The notes under the pieces were generated by a model, which saw nothing but the letters and a program-made list of their open reading frames with translations, was not told the DNA's origin and did not search any database. The position numbers were made by a program, and so were the translations under genes. A stretch of DNA of 33,145 bases from Candidatus Geothermincola secundus (GTDB lineage Bacteria > Actinomycetota > Geothermincolia > Geothermincolales > Geothermincolaceae). This document shows, piece after piece, positions 16,549 to 33,145 of the stretch; positions within the stretch are counted from its first letter, which is position 1, and every line of letters starts with the position of its first letter. The stretch covers positions 1-33,145 of the forward strand of contig JACVIY010000012.1 of the NCBI GenBank assembly GCA_015711755.1, read 5' to 3'.

Positions 16549-17310
16549 ATGGCGAAAGGAAGGTTGCGTAAGGTGTTACTGGCAGGGGCAGCCCTGCACC
16601 TGTGGGCGGTCAGGGAATTGAGGCCGAGCGCGGCGGAACTCCTTGACCTCCGCTGGCACCGCGAGGTGCCGCTACGCATAACCGCGCGAGCTCTTGCACG
16701 CCTCCTGCCCTGGCTGTACCGAAAATGGGGGGAGAGGGGCGTGAGGTCCCTTCAATATGTCTTCTACCAAATAGGGCGGGACCGCGCTCCCCTGCTTATG
16801 AGGTACCTGGAGATAGATCCGGATGACGCCCGCAGCCTGGGGCGGGTCTTGGATTACGAAGACGGCCTGGTGGGCGTGCGGGGCATCTGGACGGAGGAGT
16901 GCCGGGGGCGGGCGGTGAAGGAGGAGAGGTACTGCCCCATAGCCGCCGACCTGGCCGGCTGCCCGGAGGTATGCACGCGCCTGATGATGGCCCTGGAGGC
17001 GGGGACTTTCTCCGTCATCAATCCGGACCTGGCGGTGCCCGAGCTGACCAAGCTCCTGTCCACCGGAGACGAGTGCTGTCTGGCGGTATTGGAGCTGCCT
17101 TACTTGAAAAGGCGGGAGGCCCGGAGTGCCTCTCCCCAGGCGACACCCGGCGCTTTTCCGCCCCGCCTCAGGCCGCCGGGGCTTCTTCCCCGACTCATGC
17201 TGACCTTGCCTCTGAGCTTTCTCAAAGCCCTTTTCGGCCTGCTGCTTCGGGGCCCTGAAGGTCTGGAGATGCACTGGTACGAGTTCTTCCGTTACCAGCC
17301 GCCCTCCTGA
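16549..17310 (+). CDS. L-2-amino-thiazoline-4-carboxylic acid hydrolase-like (ATC_hydrolase/V4R-like) protein
   Basis: YCPIAADLAGCPEVCTRLMMALEAGTFSVINPDLAVPELTKLLSTGDECCLAVLELP resembles the ATC_hydrolase C-terminal pattern (C...GDxxC). Confidence 0.5.
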   Translation: MAKGRLRKVLLAGAALHLWAVRELRPSAAELLDLRWHREVPLRITARALARLLPWLYRKWGERGVRSLQYVFYQIGRDRAPLLMRYLEIDPDDARSLGRVLDYEDGLVGVRGIWTEECRGRAVKEERYCPIAADLAGCPEVCTRLMMALEAGTFSVINPDLAVPELTKLLSTGDECCLAVLELPYLKRREARSASPQATPGAFPPRLRPPGLLPRLMLTLPLSFLKALFGLLLRGPEGLEMHWYEFFRYQPPS

Positions 17311-18031: not shown

Positions 18032-19015
18032 ATGAGACCTTTGGGGCGCGGCCAGAGCGGTTCAGCCGTGGGCGATGTTCAGAGGCGCCTGCACGATCTG
18101 GGGTTTGACTGCCCCGGCTTCGCCGAGGAATGCGCGCGCTGCCTTTTCGGTGAGGCCACCCGCCGTCTGGTCTCCGATTTCCAGGAAGCGCGGGGGCTGC
18201 GGTCCAGCGGCGAGGTGGACGACGTCACCTGGCGCGAGTTGGTGGAAGCGTCCTACAAACTGGGGGACCGATTTCTTTACCTGAGATCGCCCTATTTCCG
18301 CGGGGACGACGTCCGAGAACTGCAGAGCTACCTCAACAGTCTGGGGTTCCACGCCGGCCGCGAGGACGGCATCTACGGCCCGGAAACCGATCGGGCGGTC
18401 CGCCTTTTCCAGGAGGACTCAGGGCTGCGGGCGGACGGCGTGGTCGGCGCCACCACCTTGACCCATCTCCTGCGGCTCAAATCGGCGGTAAGGCCGACCA
18501 GCATCAGCGTGGCAGAGGTAAAGGAGCGGCTTCAAGACTCCATCCCCCTTCCCCTCAGTGGGCGCCGGATAGCGCTGGACGCCGGAAATCCCCACGCCCG
18601 CCGGTGCGGCCTGCTCGAAGAGCTGGCCGCCCTGCTGCGGGGAGAGGGAGCCGAGGCGCTGCCCCTTCCCGCTATCGACGAATCCCCGGAGTCGGAGCGC
18701 GCTTCCCTGGCCAACCGCCTGGAGGCCGAGGCGCTGTTGAGCGTCATCGTGGTCGGGGCCGGCTCGCCCCCTCGCGCTTACTTTTTCGCGGGAAAGAATT
18801 ACGTCTCGCCGCGGGGTCAGAGGCTGGCGGGCTTGATCATGGACTCGCTGTCAGCGCTGGGCCTGTCGGGGAGCTGTGAGGGCAGGAGCTTTCCCCTTCT
18901 TCGGGAAACGCGCATGGTCTGCGTGGTCCTGGAGATTCCCGAGGGCGGGTGGGGATCAAGGGAAATGGCCGCCTCGCTGTTTGGGGCGTTCCGTTCTTTC
19001 TGGAGCGGCCGCTGA
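18032..19015 (+). CDS. CwlM-like protein: two peptidoglycan-binding domains + degenerate amidase_3 domain
   Basis: GDVQRRLHDLGF...LFGEATRRLVSDFQEARGL; DDVRELQSYLNSLGFHAGREDGIYGPETDRAVRLFQEDSGLRADGVVG; RRIALDAGNPHARR; LANRLEAEALLSVIVVGAG. Confidence 0.85.
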   Translation: MRPLGRGQSGSAVGDVQRRLHDLGFDCPGFAEECARCLFGEATRRLVSDFQEARGLRSSGEVDDVTWRELVEASYKLGDRFLYLRSPYFRGDDVRELQSYLNSLGFHAGREDGIYGPETDRAVRLFQEDSGLRADGVVGATTLTHLLRLKSAVRPTSISVAEVKERLQDSIPLPLSGRRIALDAGNPHARRCGLLEELAALLRGEGAEALPLPAIDESPESERASLANRLEAEALLSVIVVGAGSPPRAYFFAGKNYVSPRGQRLAGLIMDSLSALGLSGSCEGRSFPLLRETRMVCVVLEIPEGGWGSREMAASLFGAFRSFWSGR

Positions 19016-19061: not shown

Positions 19062-19403
19062 TCAGCCGCCTTTTTCCCGGACCTCCACGCCCTCCACCAC
19101 CACCTCCACTCCGGCCACCCGCACCCCCGCCGCGGCTTCCATGTATTCCCTGATGCGCTGGGAGATCTCGGAGGCTATGCGGGGGATGTTCTCGCCGTAG
19201 CGCACCGATATATGCACGGTGAAGCGGTAGCTCCCCCCCTCCTCTTCCACCTTGACGCCGTGGCGTATGAACTCCCTTTTTATCCGCGAGGCCAGCGCCT
19301 CCATCGGGCTCTGAAGGCATTCCACCACCCCGCTTACGCTCAGGGCGGCCTGGGAAGCCAGGTCGGCCAGGGCATCCCGGGAGAGCTCGATCTTCTCTTC
19401 CAT
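19062..19403 (-). CDS. Asp23/Gls24 family envelope stress response protein
   Basis: ELSRDALADLASQAALSVSGVVEC...SYRFTVHISVRYGENIPRIASEISQRIREYMEAAAGVRVAGVEVVVEGV. Confidence 0.85.
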   Translation of the reverse strand: MEEKIELSRDALADLASQAALSVSGVVECLQSPMEALASRIKREFIRHGVKVEEEGGSYRFTVHISVRYGENIPRIASEISQRIREYMEAAAGVRVAGVEVVVEGVEVREKGG

Positions 19404-19411
19404 GCCCGCCC

Positions 19412-19927
19412 TCAGAGCTCCCTGGTGCCGTGGCGAATGGAGGTTATGGTTATCTTTCCCGTGCTCACGTCGAAGAACATGGTTCGGCCGTAGTTGCCCC
19501 CGGTGTCCTCTCCCAGCAGCGGTATCTTCAATTCGGCCAGGGTCTTCTTGGTTGACTCCACGTTGCGCTCCCCGATGTTCATGCCCGGAGAGGGCCCCGG
19601 CACGTTGGCGGGATTGGACGCCCCGGGTATGGTGAACATCTGGGCCCCCCCGGCGATCCTCGCGGTTATGCGGTTGCGCCTCGCCCCCAGGCGCACCATC
19701 TCCTCCACCATGGCGCGTATGGCGGTGTCGGCGAAGCGGCCGGCCCGCCCCCCTCTGGAGATGGCCCGGCTGTCCGGCAGCATGATGTGGGCCAGTCCAC
19801 CTATGCGCTTGGCCTCATCGTAAAGGGCGATGGCCACGCAGGAGCCCAGCCCGTAGCTGGCCAGCACCTTGGGGTTGTGGGTGACGTAGTATTCCGCCAC
19901 CCCCACTCCGACTATCTCTTCCGGCAC
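19412..19927 (-). CDS. cheD: chemoreceptor glutamine deamidase CheD
   Basis: VGVAEYYVTHNPKVLASYGLGSCVAIALYDEAKRIGGLAHIMLPDS; catalytic-type Cys and His 17 residues apart. Confidence 0.92.
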   Translation of the reverse strand: MPEEIVGVGVAEYYVTHNPKVLASYGLGSCVAIALYDEAKRIGGLAHIMLPDSRAISRGGRAGRFADTAIRAMVEEMVRLGARRNRITARIAGGAQMFTIPGASNPANVPGPSPGMNIGERNVESTKKTLAELKIPLLGEDTGGNYGRTMFFDVSTGKITITSIRHGTREL

Positions 19928-20541
19928 TAAGCGCTCACTCCCAGTCTTCCCAGAATGACCCCAAGCGACCCAAGGTCGGGGAAAAGGATCAGGTGTCCCT
20001 TTATCTTGTGGGCGGAGACGTCGAACTCGGTCTCGATGACCAGGACGTAGTCCTCCGATTGGCTTATCTCTATTAGTATGAAGTCTATGATGGCCCCGGC
20101 CATGTCCAGGGCGAAGCCGGGGACCGACGGCCGCAGCAGCAGGGAGGTCATCTGGGAGAGCGCGTTGAGGTAGGAGCCGGCCAAGATGCTCCCTGCCTCC
20201 TGAAGGGCCGACTGCTCGATCGTGGAAAGGGGCGCGGAGGGATCGGTAGACACCATCAGCTTGGCCAGCTCGAAGGCGCTGCGCTCCTCCAGAAGCAGGA
20301 GCATGCTGCCCGAGGCGTCCCCGGTTATGTGCAGATAGACCCCGGCCACCGGGGTCTCCGCCCCACCCACCAGATCGGACACTTTCACCAGCGGCACCAG
20401 GGAAGCGCGGGGCACGCTGAGCATCACCTTTTTGTCCACCATGGAGGACAGGGCCACGGCAGCGTTGCCGGAGCCGATGTTGCCCACCTCTCTCAGCGCG
20501 TCCAACTGCAGGGGCGTCAGCTCTCTTGGTTCAGCCATCAC
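19927..20541 (-). CDS. cheC: CheY-P phosphatase CheC
   Basis: LDALREVGNIGSGNAAVALSSMVDKKVMLSVP fits [DS]x3Ex2Nx22P; second degenerate copy SALQEAGSILAGS. Confidence 0.92.
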   Translation of the reverse strand: MMAEPRELTPLQLDALREVGNIGSGNAAVALSSMVDKKVMLSVPRASLVPLVKVSDLVGGAETPVAGVYLHITGDASGSMLLLLEERSAFELAKLMVSTDPSAPLSTIEQSALQEAGSILAGSYLNALSQMTSLLLRPSVPGFALDMAGAIIDFILIEISQSEDYVLVIETEFDVSAHKIKGHLILFPDLGSLGVILGRLGVSA

Positions 20542-20591
20542 CAGCGATTCCTCCCTTCAAGCGCAAGCCTTTCCGGCCTCACCGCCCGCCT

Positions 20592-22832
20592 TCACAGCAG
20601 GCTGGGTATGTCCAGTATGAGAGCGACTCTTCCCGATCCCAGGATGGTCGCTCCCGCGAATCCCTTGATCCCCTTGAGAAAGCGGTCCAGTGAGGTGATG
20701 ACTATCTCCTGCTGGCCCAGCAGCTCGTCCACCGCGATGGCCAGACTGCGCACCGCTATCTCCACCACCACCACGGGGAAGGAGCCCTTTCCGTTTTCCT
20801 GGGGAATGCCCAGCAGGCGGTGCAGTCGCAGCAGAGGCACCGTCTCCTCTCGCAGGAAGATCACCTCCTGATGCTGCACCTGCCGTATCTCATGCTCATC
20901 CACCACCGCGGTCTCCCGCACCGTTCCCAAAGGGATGGCGTAGATCTCGCCTCCCGCCTCCACCAGCAGGGCCTGGATTATGGCCAGGGTCAGAGGGAGC
21001 TTCATGGCAAAAGTGGTGCCCCTGCCCTTCTGGGAGGTCATCACCAGCATTCCGCCCAGGGATTCCACCTTGCTCTTGACAACATCCAGGCCCACGCCCC
21101 GCCCGGATACCCCGCTGACCTCGCTGGCCGAGCTGAAGCCGGGGCTGGCGAGGAAGCGCAGTATCTCGTCGTCGGTGAATGCCCTTTTCTCCTCGGGACT
21201 GGCGAGGCCGCGCTGCACCGCAAGCTCGAAGATGCGTTCGTGATCGACGCCCTGTCCGTCGTCGGAGACCTCTATGGAGACGTAATTGCGGTCACGGCGG
21301 GCCAGAAGGGTTATTATCCCCCGCCGCGGCTTGCCCAGCCTCTCGCGCTCCTCGGGATAGTCGATGCCGTGGTCCACCGCGTTTCTCAGCAGGTGCATCA
21401 GGGGGTCGCTTATCTCGTCCAGTATGGTGCGGTCCAGCTCTATCTCTTTGCCCTCTATGTTGAAGTCCACGTCTTTTCCCTGGCTCTTGGCCAAGTCTCT
21501 CACCATGCGGGGGAAGCGGTTGAACACGTGCTCCACCGGCACCATCCGCGTCTTCATCACCTCATCCTGCAAGTCGGCGGTGAGCCGGGCGGTGTGGTCC
21601 AGGGTCTCCTTCAGCTCCGCGATGTTGTAAGTAGACGCGATCTCCATGAGCCGGGTGCGGTTTATCACCAGCTCGCCCACCAGGTTCATCAGGTTGTCCA
21701 GGCGGGATATGTTCACCCTGACGCTCTGGGTGCGTATGGGGAGGGCGGCGGCTTGGGCCGGCTTGGCCTCGCCCCTCTCGCGAGGCTCCCATTGTTGCTT
21801 CTCTTCCTCCTCCGCGGGCCTTCCGGCTTCCTCCGCCACTTCCTCCGCCACCGGCACTTCCAGGGGGATTATCTCCACCCCCTCCACCTCGGCTATGGCC
21901 AAGATGGACTTCCGCAGCTGCTGCTGATCCTCCCTGGTGGCCACCAACACCTCGAAGGATGTGTCGAATTTCTCATCCTCCAGGTCCTCCACGGGGGGAA
22001 CGGATTTGACGATGCGGCTGGCCTGAGAGATCCGTTTGAACACCATGAAGACCCGCACCGATTTGAGGACACAGTCCTCATCCAGGGTGATGCGCAGAAG
22101 ATAAGGCAGCGCCCCTTCTTTTGCCTCCCTGGCCAACTCCTTGAGTTCCTCTCGCTCCAGCGCCAGCGGAGCCGCAGGCGTTCCTGAAGGGGCGGCTGCC
22201 CCCGCTTCGCCGATTTCTGCCGCCCCTTCGGGAGGCGCTTCCTCCTCGCGGGCCTCCGACTCGACCGGGGCCTCCTCGGCCGCCGCGGCAGCGGGCTCCT
22301 CCCGCGGCAACGCCTCTTCCCTTTCTTGCGGCGCGGCCTCCTCCTCTTCCTTGCGGGGCTTCTTGGCTCTGCGGGGCTTCTTGGCCGGCTTCCTTTCCGC
22401 GGCCCTGCCCTCTTCGGGCATCGGCGCGGGGCGAGGTGCGAGCGGCTGCCCCTCGACGACCGCCCGGAGCTCGGAGAGGATGGGCCTGGTGTCAACCGGC
22501 ACAGCGGAATCCTCGGCGATGGCTTTGACCAGGGCGCCCAGCGCGTCCAGAGCGCCGAACAGCAGGTCGAGCACCTCGGAGGTCACCAGGAGGTCCCCTC
22601 CCCTCAGGCCGTCCAGCACGTTTTCCATCTCGTGCGAGAGCTCAGTCAGTTGATCGAAGCCGAGGGTCGCGGACATCCCCTTCAGGGTGTGGGCCGACCT
22701 GAATATCTCCGTTAGGAGATCCAGGTTCTCCGGGTCCTTCTCCAGCTCCAGCAGCGACTGGTTGAGGGCCTCCAGGTGCTCGGTGGCCTCGCTTACGAAG
22801 AGTTCCTTGTATTGCGAAACATCCATATCCAT
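20592..22832 (-). CDS. cheA: chemotaxis histidine kinase CheA
   Basis: Hpt FRSAHTLKGMSATLGF; acidic/Ala-Pro linker; P2-like region; dimerization RLDNLMNLVGELVINRTRL; HATPase HLLRNAVDHGID; C-terminal CheW-like domain. Confidence 0.96.
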   Translation of the reverse strand: MDMDVSQYKELFVSEATEHLEALNQSLLELEKDPENLDLLTEIFRSAHTLKGMSATLGFDQLTELSHEMENVLDGLRGGDLLVTSEVLDLLFGALDALGALVKAIAEDSAVPVDTRPILSELRAVVEGQPLAPRPAPMPEEGRAAERKPAKKPRRAKKPRKEEEEAAPQEREEALPREEPAAAAAEEAPVESEAREEEAPPEGAAEIGEAGAAAPSGTPAAPLALEREELKELAREAKEGALPYLLRITLDEDCVLKSVRVFMVFKRISQASRIVKSVPPVEDLEDEKFDTSFEVLVATREDQQQLRKSILAIAEVEGVEIIPLEVPVAEEVAEEAGRPAEEEEKQQWEPRERGEAKPAQAAALPIRTQSVRVNISRLDNLMNLVGELVINRTRLMEIASTYNIAELKETLDHTARLTADLQDEVMKTRMVPVEHVFNRFPRMVRDLAKSQGKDVDFNIEGKEIELDRTILDEISDPLMHLLRNAVDHGIDYPEERERLGKPRRGIITLLARRDRNYVSIEVSDDGQGVDHERIFELAVQRGLASPEEKRAFTDDEILRFLASPGFSSASEVSGVSGRGVGLDVVKSKVESLGGMLVMTSQKGRGTTFAMKLPLTLAIIQALLVEAGGEIYAIPLGTVRETAVVDEHEIRQVQHQEVIFLREETVPLLRLHRLLGIPQENGKGSFPVVVVEIAVRSLAIAVDELLGQQEIVITSLDRFLKGIKGFAGATILGSGRVALILDIPSLL

Positions 22833-22881
22833 GAGAACCGCCTTTCGACGGAACCATTCTCTCCCGAAACGATCCCGCTCC

Positions 22882-23925
22882 TCACAGCAAACTCAGTATG
22901 GTCTCGGGGATCTGTTCCAGGGGGACCACCCAGTCCACGCATCTCGTCTCTATGGCCGCCTTGGGCATTCCGAAGACCAGGCAGGTCTCCTCGCTCTGGG
23001 CGACGGTCTTCCCCTTCTTCTCTTTCACCGCGGCCATTCCTCGGGCTCCGTCCGAGCCCATCCCGGTCATGATGACTCCCACGGTGTTCTCGCCGTAAGC
23101 CTCCGCGGCGCTGATCATGGTGGTGTCGATGTGCGGAGAGGCTCCGTGCCTGCCCTGTGACTCCACCAGCCTCACCTCGCCGGCTCCGCCTTTGTCGCCC
23201 CGCACCTGAAGGTCGAAGCCGCCCGGCGCCACCAGAACCTCTCCCGGCCTGATGGCCTCGCCCTGCTCAGCCTCCTTCACCGTGAGCTCGCAGCGGCTCG
23301 CCAGCCGCTCGGCGAATGAGCGGGTGAATATGCCCGGCATGTGCTGCACGATGATCAGGGCGGCGGGGATGTCGGCGGGAAACATCGGCATTATCTCCGC
23401 GAGGGCCTTAGGTCCTCCCGCCGAGGCCCCGATCACGACCAGTTTCTCTCGCTGGGCCGCCGACATGCGCAGCCGCAGTTTCCTCCGTGCCTGCATTGCG
23501 GTGATGCCCTTTTTCACGAATCCCCGGGCCTGAGCGGCCATCCTCACCTTTTCCAGCACCTCCTCGCGGACCTCTTTCACCGCGGAGGGGAAATGAGAGG
23601 GCTTGGTGATGAAATCCACCGCCCCCAATTCCAGCGACTTGATGGTGGGTATGGCGCCCTTCTGGGCCAGCGCGCTGAGCATCACCACCGGCCGGGGGCT
23701 CTTCTTCATGATGTATTCCAAGGCGGTAAGCCCGTCCATCTCGGGCATGTGGATGTCCATGGTGACCACATCGGGGTCCAGCTCGCCGACAAGGCGGATG
23801 GCCTCGATGCCGTTGGAGGCGGTGCCGATCACCTCCATCTCCGGGTCGCCGCCGATGATGTCGCGCAGCAGCTTGCGCACCAATGCTGAATCGTCGACGA
23901 TGAGGACTTTTATCCTGGGGGGCAC
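22882..23925 (-). CDS. cheB: protein-glutamate methylesterase CheB
   Basis: Receiver IKVLIVDDSALVRKLL...VTMDIHMPEMDG; methylesterase LVVIGASAGGPKAL...IVQHMPGIFTRSFAERL. Confidence 0.95.
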   Translation of the reverse strand: MPPRIKVLIVDDSALVRKLLRDIIGGDPEMEVIGTASNGIEAIRLVGELDPDVVTMDIHMPEMDGLTALEYIMKKSPRPVVMLSALAQKGAIPTIKSLELGAVDFITKPSHFPSAVKEVREEVLEKVRMAAQARGFVKKGITAMQARRKLRLRMSAAQREKLVVIGASAGGPKALAEIMPMFPADIPAALIIVQHMPGIFTRSFAERLASRCELTVKEAEQGEAIRPGEVLVAPGGFDLQVRGDKGGAGEVRLVESQGRHGASPHIDTTMISAAEAYGENTVGVIMTGMGSDGARGMAAVKEKKGKTVAQSEETCLVFGMPKAAIETRCVDWVVPLEQIPETILSLL

Positions 23926-23987
23926 CGCTTCCTCCTACCCGGGAACCCGGCCCGCGGCCCGTCCGGCCGCGGTGGGGCCGCCGCATC

Positions 23988-24353
23988 TCATCCCTTCAGC
24001 GCCTTTTCCACCGCTTCGATGACTTTGGAGGGCTGAAAGGGCTTGATGATGAAGTCCTTGGCCCCCGCCTCCAGGGCCTCCACCACCAGCGGCTGCTGGC
24101 CCATGGCGCTGCACATGAGTATCTTGGCGTTGGGGTCGATCTTCATTATCTGCTTTACGGCCTCGATGCCGTCCATCTCCGGCATGACGATATCCATGGT
24201 CACCAGATCGGGCCGGAGTTCTTTGTAGCGCTCGACCGCCTCCACGCCGTTCTCCGCTTCCCCCACCACCTCGAAGCCGTCCTTGTTCAAGATGTCCCTT
24301 ATCATCATGCGCATGAATAGGGCGTCGTCCACTATCAGCACCTTCGGCGCCAT
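23988..24353 (-). CDS. cheY: chemotaxis response regulator CheY
   Basis: PKVLIVDDALFMRMMIRDIL...LVTMDIVMPEMDGIEAV...ILMCSAMGQQPLVVEALEAGAKDFIIKPF. Confidence 0.95.
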   Translation of the reverse strand: MAPKVLIVDDALFMRMMIRDILNKDGFEVVGEAENGVEAVERYKELRPDLVTMDIVMPEMDGIEAVKQIMKIDPNAKILMCSAMGQQPLVVEALEAGAKDFIIKPFQPSKVIEAVEKALKG

Positions 24354-24435
24354 CTCATCCCTCCTTACGCGGGCCTTTTGCGCTATCGTCCGCCGGGGCC
24401 GTGATCCCTGCAGCGCGCATCTCTACCTCTTCTCC

Positions 24436-24906
24436 TCAAAAGCTGAGCTCGCTGATCTCCTCGGCTCCCAGCACCCGTGCCAGGTCCAGGAGGATGATCA
24501 GCCGGTTGTCCCTCTTCACCACTCCCTTAAGATATACGGCCTCAACGTCGGCGGCCAGGGCGGGGCTGGGTTCCACCTCTTCCTCGCTGATGCGCATGAC
24601 CTCGGAAACGGAGTCCACGATCATGCCCACCTTGGCATCGCCTGCCTCCACCACGATGATGCGGGTCTCCGAGCCGCGGTCCGCCGACTCCAGGCTGAGC
24701 CGCTGGGCCAAGTCCAGAACCGCGATGATCTGGCCCCTGAGGTTGATTATCCCCTCCACGAAAGAGGGGGCCTTGGGCATGCGGGTGATGTCCTGCATGC
24801 GGATTATCTCCCTCACCTGGGAGACGTCAACCGCGAACTCCTCCCTTCCCAGCTGGAATATCACCAGCTGCAGTTCCCGGTCCTCTCTGCCGGGATCGGC
24901 CATCAC
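24436..24906 (-). CDS. cheW: chemotaxis coupling protein CheW
   Basis: LQLVIFQLGREEFAVDVSQVREIIRMQDITRMPKAPSFVEGIINLRGQIIAVLDLAQRL. Confidence 0.95.
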   Translation of the reverse strand: MMADPGREDRELQLVIFQLGREEFAVDVSQVREIIRMQDITRMPKAPSFVEGIINLRGQIIAVLDLAQRLSLESADRGSETRIIVVEAGDAKVGMIVDSVSEVMRISEEEVEPSPALAADVEAVYLKGVVKRDNRLIILLDLARVLGAEEISELSF

Positions 24907-24955
24907 GACCTCCTTCCGCGTGTTCCCGCCTGGAGCCTACGCGCAGTTCCATCTA

Positions 24956-24984
24956 AATATAGCGTAATCAAAACCCTTAGACAA
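24956..24984 (-). promoter_or_regulatory. candidate sigma70-type promoter for cheW-cheY-cheB-cheA-cheC-cheD
   Basis: Minus strand TTGTCT (24984-24979), 17-nt spacer, TATATT (24961-24956), about 50 nt upstream of the cheW start. Confidence 0.6.
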
Positions 24985-25041
24985 TGAAAGTGGGGCCTTC
25001 CGCTCTTTCTCCAAGCGCCCCCTTAACGCCACGGGCACCCC

Positions 25042-26355
25042 TCAGGTCTTGAACTCGGAGATGATGGACCGCAGCCTTCCTGCCAGCTCGTCCAGCTCCT
25101 GGGCCGCCGCGGTGACTTCCTGCATGGCCGCGGTCTGCTCCTCCACCGAGGCGCTCACCTCCTCGGTGGAGGCGGCGGATTCCTCGGAGATGCTCGCTAT
25201 GGAGCCCATGACTTCCACCACCCTGTGCGCTCCCGAGGTCATCTGCTGAGTGGCGGCGAAGATGGCTTCGATCTCGCGGGAGATCGCCGCGGTGGCCTGG
25301 TCGATGCCCTCCAGCATATCCCGCGCCTCGGAGACCACCGCGTCTCCCTCCTCCGCTTCCCGCGTTCCCGCCTCCATGGCGTTGATGGTGTTCTCTATGC
25401 CTCTCTGTATCTCCCTCACAAGGTTCGCTATCTGGCTGGCGGCCTGGGCGGAGCCCTCGGCCAGGTTGCGCACCTCCCCCGCCACCACCGCAAACCCCCG
25501 TCCCTGCTCCCCGGCCCTGGCCGCCTCGATGGCGGCGTTGAGCGCCAGCAGGTTGGTCTGGTCGGCTATGGAGGTGATGACGTCCACGATCAGCCCGATC
25601 TGGGCGGATTGCTCGCCCAGCTGCCGCACGGCCTCGGCCGAGGAGTTGACCGTCTCCCGCAGCATGGCCATCTTGTCTTTGGCCTTCTGGGCCGCTTCCG
25701 TGCCCCTGGCCACCGTTTCCCGCGCCTCCTCCCCGGAGCGGGATGCCGAAGAGGCGGCCCGGGAGACCCGGTTTATCTCCTCCACTATCTCCCCCACCAC
25801 ACCCTGGGCGTGCATTATCGTCCGGGCCTGGTCCTCCGCTCCCCGTGCCAGCTGCGCTATGGTGTTCGCCGTTTCCTGGGCCGACTCGGTGGTTTCCCGG
25901 GAAACGCTGGACATGGTCTCGCTCGCCACCGCCAGCTGTCCCGCCGTGGTCGCCAGATTGTCGACCACCTCACGCATGAACCAGCAAAGGGAGTCGACGG
26001 CTTCCGCCGCCTTGCGCATGACCCTGGCCTCGGAGGACGTCAGGCCCGCGGTGAAGTCCTTCTGGCGAATGCTCTCGGCGGCGCGGTTTATGCGGGCGAG
26101 CGGACCCAGGAAGAACCGCAATACCATCCAAGTGGCCAGGCCCGCCGCAGCCGCAGAGTAGATCGCGCCCAGCAGCAGCCCCAGAAGAGCGGAGTTCCAG
26201 CTCGAGCGGGAGGCGATGACGGCCGCGACCACGGTGGCGCCGATGCCCGCGGGGAAGACCGCCGCGTATATCATCAAAAGAAAGGGCCTTATCTCCTTCC
26301 ACGCTTCCCTGGCATGCTCGTCCACGGCAACGCTCCCGCGACCGTCCGGACTCAT
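25042..26355 (-). CDS. methyl-accepting chemotaxis protein without extracytoplasmic sensor domain
   Basis: Two TMs with a very short loop, then HAMP-like and MCP signal domain ([44 protein letters not shown]). Confidence 0.93.
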
Positions 26356-28082
26356 TCTACCTTGAAGCCGCCGACGACCTTGCTCAGCCTGGCGGCCATC
26401 TCCGCGAGCTCCTGGGCCGCGGAGTTTATCTCCTGCATGGACGCGGTCTGTTCCTCCACCGCCGCCGCCGACTCCTCGGAGGACGCCGCCACCTCGTCCG
26501 CGATACTGGCTATCTCGGTTATGGCCTTGAGGGCCTGCTCGCTGTTCTCCACCTGCTTGCGGGTGCTCTCGGCGATCTCCTGAGCGTAGCGGGCGGTGTT
26601 CTGCACGGACACGGTTATCTCGCGCAGGGCCGCCCCGGCCCGCCCCACCACTTCTGTTCCCTTGGAGACCTCCTGCACCGACCTCTCGATGTTCTCAGCC
26701 ATATGCCCCACCTCACCCTGTATCTCCATGATCAGGTGAGATATCTGTTCCGCCGCCTTGCGGGAATCCTCCGCCAGCTTGCGCACCTCGTCAGCCACCA
26801 CCGCGAAGCCCCTCCCGTGCTCCCCGGCCCGGGCCGCCTCGATGGCGGCGTTGAGCGCCAGCAGGTTGGTCTGGTCGGCCACGCTGGTGATGACCTCCAC
26901 GATGATGCCTATCTGCATGAAACGCTCCTCCAGACTCCCGCTGGTGGCCAGCACCATGCGGGCGGCGCTGTTGATAGCCTCTATGGCCTCCGCCGTCTCC
27001 ACCGCGGCCTCGGCGCCCTTCTGCGCCAGCTCGATGGCCTCGAGGGAGGCGGAGCTCGACATCTCGGCCTTGTCCGAGATCTCCTGCACGGTGGCGCTCA
27101 TGGCCTCCATGGCGTGGGAGGTCTCCAGGACCCGCCGGGCTTGCTCCTCGCTGCCCTTGGCGATGTGGGAAACGGTGGAGGAGATCTCCTGGCTGGAGGC
27201 GTTTATCTCCTGGACCACCGAGGCCATCTGCTCCGCATGGGCGGAGAGCGCGCCGGCGATCTTGCTTATCTCGGCAATGGAGCCGCGCAGGGCTCTGATC
27301 ATCAGGTTTATGGAGTCCGCCAGGTTTCCCAGCGCTCCTTTTTCTTCCCAGACCACCTGCTGGGTGAGATCGCCGTCTCCCGCAGCGATCCTCCCCACCT
27401 GCCGGGTTATCATGTCTATAGGCCTGGTCACCCAGCGGTACATCAGCAGCGCGAAGGCGGCCCCCACCGCGCCCGCGACCGCCATCAGGACGGCGGAGGC
27501 GATGATGGCGGAGCGGAAGGTGCTCTTGAGGGACCCGACGAGCTCCGTTGAGCGTCCGGCGGCCGCTTCCAGAAAGGCAGCCCCTTTCTCCTGCACCGCC
27601 GAGGCCAGCTTACCTTCCCGCAGCAGGAGTTCGGCCACGCTCTCGTCGCCGCTGAGCGCCTTCCCCGCCCGGGCGTATTCCTCGAGGAAGGAATCAAGGC
27701 GGCGGTATTCCTCTTCCAGCCCGAGCAGCGCCTCCCGGATGCTCGCTTCTTCCGCGGCTTTCATCGCCTCCAGGCTCCTCAGGGCCGCAGAGCGCCCTCT
27801 GTCGAAGAGCTCTCGGGCCCCTTCCGTATCGCCGGAAAGGGCCAGGGGCAAGGCCCCCCTCTCCTCCTCCAATGCTGTGCTGAACGACGCGTATTCCCGT
27901 TGGGCCCCCTGCAGGCGCTGCGCACCGCTGGCCTTCCCCGTCTGCCCGGCGGATACGGCGATGGAAACGATGAAAACGGCCCATATCGCCCCCACGAAGA
28001 CGATGGTCGCGACAATCACCGAGCGTCGGTAGCTGAACCGCTTCTGTATGCCCTTCTCCAGCTTCAAATAAAGGCCCTCCAA
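26352..28082 (-). CDS. methyl-accepting chemotaxis protein, 4HB-like sensor + HAMP + signal domain
   Basis: TM1 [23 protein letters not shown], ~145-aa helical ectodomain, TM2, [27 protein letters not shown], hairpin [44 protein letters not shown]; overlaps next MCP by ATGA. Confidence 0.95.
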
Positions 28083-28151
28083 GGCGCTCCTCCCGGTTCT
28101 TTGTCCTTTTCCGCTATTTTAACCACAGGTCGTCGAAAAAGCGATTTTCCC

Positions 28152-29156
28152 TCATCGGCTTTCTTTCCTCGTCGCCGGACCTTGCCCGCCCCTCGAGCCG
28201 GCCCCCTCCCTCAAAGAGGGGCGAGAGCGCTCGCATCGAGCCGGCAAGCAGGTCTCTTCGGCCTTGCGGTAGATCCTCTCCCTCCTGAGCACCGGCTCAA
28301 AGCCGGCTCCCGCGGCGCCGATGATGGCCTCGCTCTTGCCCAGGACCAGGAAGCCGTCGCGCCGGAGCGAGGCTCGAAAGAGATCCAGCAGCCTCGCCTG
28401 CATGTCCCTCTCGAAGTAGATGAGCACATTGCGGCACAGGATCATGTCCAGGAAACGGTAGGGGGGCATCTTCATAAGGTCGGCTCGATGGAACTTCACC
28501 GCATGGGCCACCTCCTCGCTTACCCGCCATCCCTCGCCCTCCCGGCGAAAATAGCGCTCGGGCTGCATGCCTGGAAGCAGGGTGAAGGAGGGGTAGATCC
28601 CTCTCCTGGCCGCCTGCAGACTCCTCTCATCAAGGTCCGTGGCGGTTATTCGCACGTGCCAGGAGTCGCGGTCGGGCAGGCGGGACAGGAAGTCGAGCAA
28701 CAGGATGGACAGCGAATAGGGCTCCTCTCCGGTGGCGCATCCCGCACTCCAGATGCGTATGGTGTTGCTCCGCTTGGCCCTTTTATGCTCCAGCATCTGG
28801 GGGAGGACGTATTGGCGCAGGGCCTGGTACACGTCGGGGTCCCGGAAGAACTCGGTGACGTTTATGGTCAGGTCGTCCAGAAGCCGACGGTACTCGTCGG
28901 GGTCCCGCTTGAGGCGCTGGAGGTAATCGAGGTACCGCGCGGTGGAGGTGGCTCTCATGCGCACGCCGATCCGTCGCTTCAGATAGCTGGGCTTGTACTG
29001 CCGGCAGTCCAGGCCCCGGTGGTCGAATATGTGCTTGAGCAGCAATTGGAATTCCTGGGGCGAGCCGGCGGGTTCCGCCGCAGCCGGATCCGGGAATGGC
29101 GCCTTGCTCGCGCCTTCCCCAGGCACGTCCGGCCTCTCTCTGTCCCGTGCGGCCAT
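28152..29156 (-). CDS. cheR: chemotaxis protein methyltransferase CheR
   Basis: FQLLLKHIFDHRGLDCRQYKPSYLKRRIGVRM...NVTEFFRDPDVYQALR...IRIWSAGCATGEEPYSLSILL...DMILCRNVLIYFE. Confidence 0.95.
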   Translation of the reverse strand: MAARDRERPDVPGEGASKAPFPDPAAAEPAGSPQEFQLLLKHIFDHRGLDCRQYKPSYLKRRIGVRMRATSTARYLDYLQRLKRDPDEYRRLLDDLTINVTEFFRDPDVYQALRQYVLPQMLEHKRAKRSNTIRIWSAGCATGEEPYSLSILLLDFLSRLPDRDSWHVRITATDLDERSLQAARRGIYPSFTLLPGMQPERYFRREGEGWRVSEEVAHAVKFHRADLMKMPPYRFLDMILCRNVLIYFERDMQARLLDLFRASLRRDGFLVLGKSEAIIGAAGAGFEPVLRRERIYRKAEETCLPARCERSRPSLREGAGSRGGQGPATRKESR

Positions 29157-29373: not shown

Positions 29374-30657
29374 TTGCAGTCAGGTGGGCGCTTTGACTAT
29401 TACAGCGGGCTCTACGCGGACCGCACCTACTCCATGATGTCCTCGGAGATAAGGGAGCTGCTCGCGGTCACCGCGCGTCCGGACATAATATCATTGGCTG
29501 GGGGTCTGCCCTGCACCGAGGTGATGCCCGTTGGCATGCTCACGGAGCTGGCGGAGCGCGTTTTCCGGGAAGACGGGCCGGGGGCCATGCAGTACGGCCC
29601 CACCGACGGGTATGCGCCGCTCAAACGCTCGCTGTGCATGGTGATGGAGGAGGAGGGGCTGCGCGCCTATCCCGAGGAGATCATCATCACCCACGGCTCC
29701 CAGCAGGCCCTGGACATGCTCTCCAAGATACTGCTGAATCCCGGCGACCCGGTCATCGTGGAGGCGCCTTCCTATGTGGGGGCGCTGAACAGCTTCATGA
29801 GCTATCAGCCGGAGATGTTCACGGTGGGAATGGACGGCGACGGCATGCTGCTTGGCGAGCTGGAGTCGGTCTTGCTGCGGCTGCGGCGCAGCGGAAAGCG
29901 GGCCAAGTTCCTCTACACCGTCCCCAATTTCCAGAATCCCGCGGGGATAACCCTTTCGGCCGAGCGGCGGATGGGCCTGATAGAGCTGTCTCGCGAACAC
30001 GACCTGATGCTGATCGAGGATAATCCCTACGGGCTGCTGCGATATGAAGGCGAGCCGCTCCCCACCCTCAAATCGCTGGATCCCCAGAGAGTGGTCTATC
30101 TGGGAACGCTGTCCAAGATCTTCTCAGCCGGCCTGCGGATAGGCTGGGCTTTTGCCCCCCCTCCGCTCCTGGAGAAGCTGCTTCTGGCCAAGCAGTCCGC
30201 CGACCTCTGCACTTCCGCGCTCACCCAGCGCATCGCCCACGCTTATTTCCAGACGCAGGACTGGCGCGCGACCGTGGCTCGGCTGGCGGAGGTTTATCGT
30301 AGGCGTCGCGACGTCATGCTGGAATCCCTCGAGGAGTTCTTCCCCGAGGAGGCATCCTGGACCCGCCCGGGAGGGGGGTTCTTCGTCTGGGTGACCCTGC
30401 CGCCTTATCTGGACACCAAAAGCATGTTGGCCCGGAGCGTGGAAAGCAAGGTGGCCTATGTGCCCGGAACCGGCTTCTATCCGGGGGGCCGCGGGGCTCA
30501 CGAGATGCGCCTCAACTTCTCCTATCCGGATGAAGAGGAGATACGCGAGGGGGTCAAGCGGCTTTCCAAAGTGATCCGGAGGGAGATCTCCCTGGCCCGC
30601 TCGCTGGGTCTGGACATCGCTGGAGACGAGGGCAGCGTTACCTCTGGAGGTGGATGA
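29374..30657 (+). CDS. PLP-dependent aminotransferase (LysN / 2-aminoadipate transaminase-like, class I/II)
   Basis: DIISLAGGLPCTEVMPV...ITHGSQQALDMLSKILLNPGDPVIVEAPSYVGAL...VPNFQNPAGITLS...YLGTLSKIFSAGLRIGW; TTG start proposed. Confidence 0.9.
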   Translation: MQSGGRFDYYSGLYADRTYSMMSSEIRELLAVTARPDIISLAGGLPCTEVMPVGMLTELAERVFREDGPGAMQYGPTDGYAPLKRSLCMVMEEEGLRAYPEEIIITHGSQQALDMLSKILLNPGDPVIVEAPSYVGALNSFMSYQPEMFTVGMDGDGMLLGELESVLLRLRRSGKRAKFLYTVPNFQNPAGITLSAERRMGLIELSREHDLMLIEDNPYGLLRYEGEPLPTLKSLDPQRVVYLGTLSKIFSAGLRIGWAFAPPPLLEKLLLAKQSADLCTSALTQRIAHAYFQTQDWRATVARLAEVYRRRRDVMLESLEEFFPEEASWTRPGGGFFVWVTLPPYLDTKSMLARSVESKVAYVPGTGFYPGGRGAHEMRLNFSYPDEEEIREGVKRLSKVIRREISLARSLGLDIAGDEGSVTSGGG

Positions 30658-31604
30658 TGGGCAGGAGAGTGGCCGTGCTCATGGGAGGCAGCTCGCTGGA
30701 GCGCGACGTATCCCTGCGCTCGGGACGGCGCATAGCGCGCGCCCTGCGCGAGCTTGGGCACGAGGTAAGCGAGCATGACATTGACCGCGAGCTGGTGGCG
30801 GACCTCAAGGCCGCCCGCCCCGACCTGGTGTATATCGCCCTGCACGGAAAGTACGGCGAGGACGGAACCGTTCAGGAGATCCTGGAGATACTGGGGCTTC
30901 CTTACACCGGCCCGGGCGTCTTCTCCAGCACCGTGGGCTTCAACAAGATACTCTCCAAGGAGATCTTCATCCGAGAGGGCATCCCCACTCCCCCCTTCTT
31001 CACCCTGTCCTCGGCCACCTTTCAGGAAATGGGGGCCTCGCATCTTCTCGGGGATATCGCTGATCGCCTGGGGTTCCCCTTGGTGGTAAAGCCCGCCGCC
31101 CAGGGCTCAGCGCTGGGAGTGAGGATCGTCGGCGGCCCGACTGAGCTAGCGCCGGCCATAGCTTCCGCTTTGGACTACGACGACCGCGTCCTTCTGGAGA
31201 AGTTCGTGCGGGGGACCGAACTGGCGGTCAGCATCCTCGGCAACTTCGAGCTCGAGGCCCTTCCGCCAGTGGAGATAGTGCCGCGCAGCGGATATTTTGA
31301 CTTTGAGTCGCGTTATACCCATGGGGCCACGGAATACCACTGCCCCGCGCGCCTGGAGGAAAAGGCGCGGGAGGGGGCCTCCGCGGTGGCCCTGCGGGCC
31401 CACCGAGCTTTGGGCTGCCTGAATGTCTCCCGCGTGGACATCATCGTCGACGAAGAGGGCGTTCCCCAGGTGCTCGAGCTCAACATCAGCCCGGGCATGA
31501 CCGAAACCAGTCTCCTTCCCATGTCGGCGGAGGCGGCGGGGATGACCTTCCTGGAGCTGGTGGAGCGTCTGGTGGAGCTGGCCCTGAATAAACCGGCGGA
31601 CTGA
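30654..31604 (+). CDS. ddl: D-alanine--D-alanine ligase
   Basis: VAVLMGGSSLERDVSLRSGRRIARAL...HGKYGEDGTVQEILEILGLPYTGPGVFSS...VVKPAAQGSALGVRIV...ESRYTHGATEYHCPARL...ELNISPGMTETSLLP; starts with ATGA overlap. Confidence 0.95.
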   Translation: MMGRRVAVLMGGSSLERDVSLRSGRRIARALRELGHEVSEHDIDRELVADLKAARPDLVYIALHGKYGEDGTVQEILEILGLPYTGPGVFSSTVGFNKILSKEIFIREGIPTPPFFTLSSATFQEMGASHLLGDIADRLGFPLVVKPAAQGSALGVRIVGGPTELAPAIASALDYDDRVLLEKFVRGTELAVSILGNFELEALPPVEIVPRSGYFDFESRYTHGATEYHCPARLEEKAREGASAVALRAHRALGCLNVSRVDIIVDEEGVPQVLELNISPGMTETSLLPMSAEAAGMTFLELVERLVELALNKPAD

Positions 31605-31624: not shown

Positions 31625-32491
31625 CTATCCCGCAAACTCCTCAGAGGTCTGCACCCCCAGCTCCGCAAGCAGCCTCGCGAGCTCCCTGTCGTTGCGGAAA
31701 TCGATGACGATGCGGCCCTTTCTCCTGCCCCTGAAAACCCTGACCTTTGAGCCCAGCCGCGCGGATATTATCGACTCAAGCTCTTCCAGTCTAACCGGCT
31801 TGGTTTTTTTAGAGGACGGCGCTCCTCCCTCCGCCGCCTTCAACAGATGCCTCCTCGCCAACTCCTCGGCCTGGCGGACCGACAGCCCCTCGTCGATGAT
31901 GCGCCTCGCCAGCTCTCCCTGATAAGGGTCTCCCTGCAGGGCCAACAAGGAGCGGGCGTGGCCGGCGCTGAGCTCTCCGGCCACCACTGCCGCCTGTATC
32001 TCCAGCGGCAACTGCAAGAGGCGCAGGGTGTTGGAGATAGCCGGCCTGCTCTTCCCCAATCTCTGAGAAAGCTCCTCCTGGGTAAGGCCGAAGTCCTCCA
32101 TCAGCTGCCGATAAGCCCCCGCCTCCTCTATGGCGTTGAGGTCCTCTCTGTGCAGGTTCTCGATCAGGGCAACCTCCAATGCCTGGGGGTCGCTCGTGTC
32201 CCTGACCACTGCGGGGATGGAGCTCACCCCCGCTTTGAGGGCGGCCCTCCATCTCCTCTCCCCCACCACCAGCTCATAGCCTCCCGGGCACGGCCTTACC
32301 ACCACGGGCTGCACAACCCCGTGCTCGAGGATGGAGGCGGCCAGCTCTTCCAGCCCCTCATCATCGAAGGTCTTGCGCGGCTGCAGGGGGTTTGGCTTGA
32401 TGCGGTCCAAGGGCACCATCTCGTAACGCGGCTCGGCGCCGTTGGAGGCGATGAGCGCGCTCAGCCCCTTACCCAGTCCTTTCTTGGCCAT
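31625..32491 (-). CDS. parB: chromosome partitioning protein ParB
   Basis: KKGLGKGLSALI, LDRIKPNPLQPRKTFDDEGLEELAASILEHGVVQPVVV, ELVVGERRWRAAL, LIENLHREDLNAIEEA. Confidence 0.96.
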   Translation of the reverse strand: MAKKGLGKGLSALIASNGAEPRYEMVPLDRIKPNPLQPRKTFDDEGLEELAASILEHGVVQPVVVRPCPGGYELVVGERRWRAALKAGVSSIPAVVRDTSDPQALEVALIENLHREDLNAIEEAGAYRQLMEDFGLTQEELSQRLGKSRPAISNTLRLLQLPLEIQAAVVAGELSAGHARSLLALQGDPYQGELARRIIDEGLSVRQAEELARRHLLKAAEGGAPSSKKTKPVRLEELESIISARLGSKVRVFRGRRKGRIVIDFRNDRELARLLAELGVQTSEEFAG

Positions 32492-33145
32492 TCCTCATCA
32501 CTTCCTTTGCAAGCTCATGGTAGGATATGGCCCCCTTGGATAGGGGGTCGTACTCACAAATCGGCCGCCCGTAGCTGGGGGCCTCGCTCAGCCTCACGCT
32601 GCGAGGTATGAGGACGGAGAAAGCGTGCTGCGGGTAGGCCTTGCGGACCTCCTCCACCACCTGTCGGGAGAGGTTGGTGCGCGGGTCGAACATGGTCATC
32701 ACTATTCCCCCTATGCGCAGGTCGCGGTTGAGATGGGCGCGCACTTTGTCGATGGTGCGCATCAGCAGCACCAGCCCCTCCAGGGCGTAGTATTCGCACT
32801 GAATGGGTATGAGCACTTCGTCCGCCGCTGCCAGTGCGTTTATGGTGAGCAGCCCCAGGGAAGGAGGGCAGTCTACAAAGACGTAGTCGTACTCGCACAG
32901 CACATCCTGCAGGGCCTCCTTAAGCCTCCATTCTCGCGACATCAACGCCACCAGCTCCACCTCGGCCCCCGCGAGCTGTATGGTGGAAGGAGCGAGCCGC
33001 AATCCATCTATGCCCGTATCGAGTATTATCTCTCTTATGGGCACATCCTTCACCAGGGAGCCGTAAACGCATTCTTTTATGCGGCCTCGCTCAACGCCCA
33101 GGCCGCTTGTGGCGTTGCCCTGAGGATCCAGGTCCACCAACAGAA
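32469..33145 (-). CDS. parA: chromosome partitioning ATPase ParA (5' end truncated by window edge)
   Basis: LLVDLDPQGNATSGLGVERG...YDYVFVDCPPSLGLLTINALAAADEVLIPIQCEYYALEGL; 3' end overlaps parB start by 23 nt. Confidence 0.95.
   Translation of the reverse strand, partial: LLVDLDPQGNATSGLGVERGRIKECVYGSLVKDVPIREIILDTGIDGLRLAPSTIQLAGAEVELVALMSREWRLKEALQDVLCEYDYVFVDCPPSLGLLTINALAAADEVLIPIQCEYYALEGLVLLMRTIDKVRAHLNRDLRIGGIVMTMFDPRTNLSRQVVEEVRKAYPQHAFSVLIPRSVRLSEAPSYGRPICEYDPLSKGAISYHELAKEVMRNGQERTG

Follow-up and report, generated by a model that had tools for sequence, protein, structure and literature searches.

A CwlM orthologue with a lost zinc-amidase active site across the order Geothermincolales

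The cwlM locus and its gene order

The window (the whole stretch of 33,145 nucleotides from Candidatus Geothermincola secundus that was analysed) contains an intact cwlM orthologue, which is listed in Table 1 together with its domains and the genes lying downstream. The encoded protein was found to carry two stretches matching the Pfam family PG_binding_1 (E 1e-30 for the whole CwlM protein), followed by a C-terminal half assigned to the Amidase_3 fold from an AlphaFold2 model searched with Foldseek and from hhalign; the sequence-only reading had proposed just this layout of two peptidoglycan-binding (PGB) repeats and an amidase_3-like domain. Relatives of PGB2 in the PDB are the N-domain of SleB and phage endolysins, and the only PHROGs matches of the protein were to endolysin PGB domains. 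Inspection of the N-terminus by eye revealed no hydrophobic stretch, with PGB1 running from residue 5.

Table 1. Coordinates of cwlM, its sequence features and the downstream genes in the window
Feature	Coordinates	Strand	Basis
cwlM orthologue (pseudo-amidase), 327 aa	18032..19015	+	intact ORF, ATG start
PGB1, N-terminal peptidoglycan-binding domain, ~residues 5-73	18044..18250	+	Pfam PG_binding_1
Inter-domain linker, residues 74-94, SYKLGDRFLYLRSPYFRGDDV	18251..18313	+	best-conserved stretch of the family; end overlaps PGB2 start
PGB2, second peptidoglycan-binding domain, residues 90-146	18299..18469	+	best Pfam PG_binding_1 stretch
Helix aligning with REEEL, the MurA-contact helix of mycobacteria; Glu165 kept, Arg166 adjoining	18503..18541	+	alignment
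Degenerate domain of Amidase_3 fold, residues 177-327	18560..19012	+	AlphaFold2, Foldseek match to Rv3717, hhalign to intact relatives
Asn186 at zinc His1 position; following loop, with zinc Glu, deleted	18587..18589	+	alignment columns
Ile239 at zinc His2 position (SxHxN)	18746..18748	+	alignment columns
LRETRM...VVLE motif, residues 290-301, including retained Glu301 (catalytic-type Glu); FITNP loop behind it shortened/missing	18899..18934	+	alignment
Asp23 and chemotaxis block (CheD, CheC, CheA, CheB, others) between cwlM and aminotransferase	19062..29156	-	six order mates arranged alike
PLP aminotransferase (PLP_AT), part of the ancestral cwlM-parB interval	29374..30657	+	gene order shared with other classes
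D-Ala-D-Ala ligase (Ddl), part of the ancestral cwlM-parB interval	30654..31604	+	gene order
ParB	31625..32491	-	matches parB adjoining cwlM in Acidimicrobiaceae L003
ParA, truncated by window end	32469..33140	-	gene order

Outside the class, the usual gene order is trxB-cwlM-(aminotransferase-ddl)-parB-parA, and trxB upstream with an oppositely oriented parB downstream was observed at 28 of 44 loci of other classes, with or without PLP_AT-Ddl. Within the class no upstream trxB was found within 9 kb of cwlM, and it is the downstream half of the locus that is conserved: CwlM-(Che block)-PLP_AT-Ddl-ParB-ParA was recovered not only in the window but also in six order mates and three genomes belonging to the class's other families. 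The window retains the ancestral order CwlM-aminotransferase-Ddl-ParB-ParA with the chemotaxis block inserted, and it is through this downstream half that it shares the conserved locus of the CwlM group.

Across the class, the Asp23 and chemotaxis cluster sits within the ancestral cwlM-parB interval, and the chemotaxis genes are present in lineages with intact and with degenerate CwlM. Just upstream of the TetR-cwlM pair, the window encodes at 16549-17310 a 253-aa protein without any Pfam or NCBIfam match, which is conserved upstream of cwlM in a family mate (G001).

Orthologues of cwlM were identified in 30 of the 31 genomes of the class, once per genome, and in 247 of 297 genomes of the phylum (~83% of the Actinomycetota sampled), with a second match in few of the phylum genomes. 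Profile search and a protein tree established full-length homology to this phylum-wide single-copy family, mycobacterial members included, and the identity of the gene as CwlM by descent is well supported. The proposal of a CwlM homologue in a deep lineage is borne out by architecture, synteny and family-wide homology, the lineage being a deep one within the Actinomycetota. That the gene might be a duplicate with a working copy elsewhere was rejected, as its own genome holds one cwlM and the other Amidase_3 genes there encode separate proteins.

Fold and active site of the C-terminal half

The AlphaFold2 model of the window CwlM, built on 30 orthologues, had a mean pLDDT of 88.5, with the amidase part mostly >90 and high values for the helices of PGB1 (residues 11-73); linker residues 77-89 fell below 50. 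Its top PDB match by Foldseek was the zinc amidase Rv3717 (E 6e-8), and hhalign against relatives with an intact active site covered 327 columns at a probability of 100%. The Pfam Amidase_3 profile reached only 12.1 bits (E 0.2) on residues 196-302, below its cut-off of 27. Because a sub-threshold profile match is accompanied by a structural match to Rv3717 and by profile-profile alignment, the C-terminal half is taken to be an Amidase_3 fold barely visible to sequence profiles. The TM score to amidase structures was 0.65 for the window CwlM versus 0.87-0.89 for an intact relative. An input of only 12 sequences limited the model of a sister protein to moderate quality (pLDDT 74.9), and a sequence search found no solved CwlM structure.

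A C-terminal half that the family profile fails to recognise was also noted in CwlM-like proteins of other actinobacterial families (L151, L154, L157, L158 and related loci).

A zinc amidase of this type carries His-Glu-His ligands and a catalytic Glu. At these four positions the window CwlM has Asn, a deletion, Ile and Glu, and comparable loss was observed across the order. Alignment confirmed the motifs as first read, LDAG[N] at D-x-G-H and SV[I]V at SxHxN, and the claim drawn from them that both zinc histidines are lost stands (Asn186, Ile239). The erosion goes beyond substitution, however: the zinc Glu is deleted along with ~15 flanking loop residues and the second active-site loop (FITNP after the last Glu) is shortened, while the terminal catalytic-type Glu301 is retained as the sole remaining site residue.

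In the order, 18 genomes were searched and 17 orthologues examined. His1 and the zinc-Glu loop were absent, and the last Glu present, in 17/17, with varying replacement residues; His2 was absent in 16/17, the exception being a family mate (L011) that keeps it. Fixation in all 17 orthologues examined argues that the active-site loss is not due to chance, and the occurrence of comparable loss in 17 genomes led us to reject an assembly frameshift artefact. The LRETRMP region shows 73% identity within the order while the rest of the amidase domain diverges, and with Glu301 retained, one old active-site feature is under constraint, possibly in a structural role only. No invariant His or Cys was found in the amidase domain of the orthologues, three of which have no His there at all, so that sequence, as far as it can tell, excludes a conserved zinc site of another make-up; the earlier reading had named other His or Glu residues forming an intact zinc site as the structural outcome that would overturn it.

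Among the other families of the class (L027-L038), all four residues (HEHE) were present in 10 of 12 proteins, and the last Glu alone was lost in the remaining two. Within the wider family of PGB-PGB-Amidase_3 proteins, too, many members have an intact site. Mycobacterial-type members have Arg, Glu, Arg and Asp (RERD) at the four positions together with a PTGTFTF tail, matching the published description (PMC4946905), and relative to these retained residues the site in the window is, as had been suggested, the more eroded one.

Descent and selection

In a tree of 107 proteins from which the ligand regions were left out, the proteins of the order grouped together with support (SH-aLRT 99). Support was lacking for joining the order to the other families of its class, and since the protein tree does not firmly place them together, vertical descent is argued mainly from synteny. 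The label intact or lost changes at least 12 times on the 107-protein tree and 8 times on a 59-row subset, counts that by themselves are not proof of direction; the active site was probably lost many times across the phylum. A relative from the Acidimicrobiaceae, located at a plain trxB-cwlM-parB-parA locus, has a degenerate active site too.

Among close pairs from the order with usable dS, dN/dS was 0.05-0.16 for the PGB part and 0.18-0.41 for the amidase part; the corresponding values for one close pair of intact proteins were 0.14 and 0.12. Selection on the amidase part of the order's proteins is relaxed yet still purifying, and the PGB part is strongly constrained. Mean identity within the order was 90% for the linker, 80% for PGB2 and 44% for the amidase half, and four linker residues (G78, R80, G91 and D93) are identical in 107/107 family members. 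Constraint has shifted and now lies on the PGB1-linker-PGB2 module and the LRETRMP core.

The linker (18251-18313) is the most conserved CwlM stretch phylum-wide despite its low-confidence structure prediction.

Putative function and comparison with known systems

We consider it likely that the CwlM orthologue of this order is a cytoplasmic, non-catalytic relative of the N-acetylmuramoyl-L-alanine amidases that serves precursor synthesis as a scaffold or regulator, both its location and its partner being predicted. The PGB1-linker-PGB2 module would make protein-protein (or precursor) contacts, these contacts would tune peptidoglycan-precursor synthesis with CwlM as scaffold or adaptor, and the amidase fold may be kept as a structural platform. 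More tentatively, PGB1-linker-PGB2 (G-x-R-x-L-Y-L-x-x-P-x-[FL]-R-G-D-D-V) could be an ancient phylum-wide cytoplasmic dock for a synthesis partner or precursor, needing neither amidase activity nor the phospho-tail. If docking is independent of both, the enzyme half could have been dismantled repeatedly, and the form found in the order would be one such outcome.

Mycobacterial CwlM is cytoplasmic and stimulates MurA when PknB phosphorylates its C-terminal tail, and its phosphorylation state decides whether it binds FhaA or MurJ (PMC4946905, PMC6180346). In vitro, stimulation of MurA also requires a charged REEEL helix, whose effects in vivo are small (PMC12723410), and CwlM can function without its active site (PMC4946905). 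It is unlikely that the window CwlM works in exactly this way, with a PknB-type kinase phosphorylating it, the phospho-form activating MurA and the unphosphorylated form binding MurJ. Orthology and the conserved locus are consistent with such a scheme, as are a kinase with four PASTA domains, FHA proteins, MurJ and MurA encoded in the genome, and Glu165, which aligns with E178 of the REEEL helix of Mycobacterium tuberculosis and is invariant in the order. However, the C-terminal PTG/TGT phospho-tail is absent from the window CwlM and effectively absent from the class, where a lone PTG occurs in 1 of 29 members (L012) and precedes the terminal helix. The E179 position holds Arg or another non-acidic residue, leaving a counterpart for one of the two MurA-contacting glutamates, and of the MurA positions contacted by the helix R355 is mostly kept and R346 mostly not. 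The MurA of the class has the canonical Cys at the mycobacterial Asp117 position and Ala at that of S368, and its MurJ lacks the CwlM-binding intracellular extension, the open frames being too short (~560-730 aa versus 1198 in a mycobacterial-type genome). The mycobacterial mechanism is unproven for the window CwlM, and the earlier suggestion of a MurA regulator in the mycobacterial manner was not upheld by these features of tail, helix, MurJ and MurA.

The remaining alternatives concern the nature of the protein itself. A secreted peptidoglycan-binding protein functionally unrelated to CwlM, such as an accessory protein of cell division or the spore cortex, would accord with the resemblance of PGB2 to SleB and endolysin binding domains; we regard it as very unlikely, as no N-terminal signal was seen by inspection, orthology to CwlM spans the full length and extends to synteny, and none of the CwlM homologues in the survey by Boutte et al. 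has a secretion signal (PMC4946905). Hardly credible is a hydrolase whose metal site has been rearranged or which works without metal: the model shows an intact fold at high confidence, Glu301 is universal among the 17 orthologues and L011 keeps His2, but the absence of an invariant His or Cys, the deletion or shortening of both ligand-bearing loops and the reduced TM score to amidase structures all weigh against it. The faster divergence of the amidase half is what a decaying pseudogene would display, yet near-universal retention in the class, dN/dS well below 1 in both halves and invariant residues throughout contradict decay, and this explanation was rejected as scarcely conceivable.

A separate observation concerns L193:467-2791 (G000:C70), which encodes a PP2C phosphatase domain joined to PASTA repeats and a predicted membrane segment and has CxxC-type repeats at its C-terminal end. 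Here the phosphatase bears the sensor that the kinase normally carries.

The role of mycobacterial CwlM is itself unsettled. The protein is essential even in cells with hyperactive MurA, and the effect of the MurA interface is modest in vivo (PMC12723410). The order separates active site and phospho-tail from what is conserved, because it has removed both while the gene is still under selection at the same locus. This makes PGB1-linker-PGB2 the part of interest and the site-intact CwlMs of the class the natural comparison. The order's protein is a clear case, though no revolutionary one, of an enzyme that has probably become a regulator. Degenerate and intact CwlM proteins across the Actinobacteria have already been reported (PMC4946905); new, as far as checked, are an order-wide form with deleted active-site loops and no phospho-tail, its comparison with site-intact CwlMs encoded at the same locus elsewhere in the class, and measurements showing that constraint has shifted towards the PGB module and the linker.

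Mycobacterial CwlM (Rv3915/MSMEG_6935; PMC4946905, PMC6180346, PMC12723410) belongs to the same phylum-wide family and shares with the window protein the layout of two PGB domains and an Amidase_3 fold and the loss of the zinc histidines; judged by inspection, the window protein would likewise lack a signal peptide. In contrast to the replacement of His by Arg there, the window CwlM has lost the zinc-Glu loop and shortened the second active-site loop; it also lacks the PTG/TGT phospho-tail and keeps the REEEL helix in part, and its genome's MurJ and MurA are without the mycobacterial features. With the CwlM proteins of the class's other families the window CwlM has PGB module, linker and chemotaxis-block locus in common, but 10 of 12 of those proteins are HEHE, and in one close pair the amidase half is as constrained as the PGB half. 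The Acidimicrobiaceae protein (L003) and other degenerate clades of the phylum resemble the window CwlM in the lost site, the TrxB-CwlM-ParB-ParA locus and the kept LRETRM core; they differ in the residues and deletions involved and fall in separate tree clades, consistent with independent loss. Finally, the Amidase_3 zinc amidases Rv3717/Ami1 and CwlV (4m6i, 1jwq) have the same fold and are catalytic and zinc-bound, whereas the window CwlM retains neither the ligands nor the loops.
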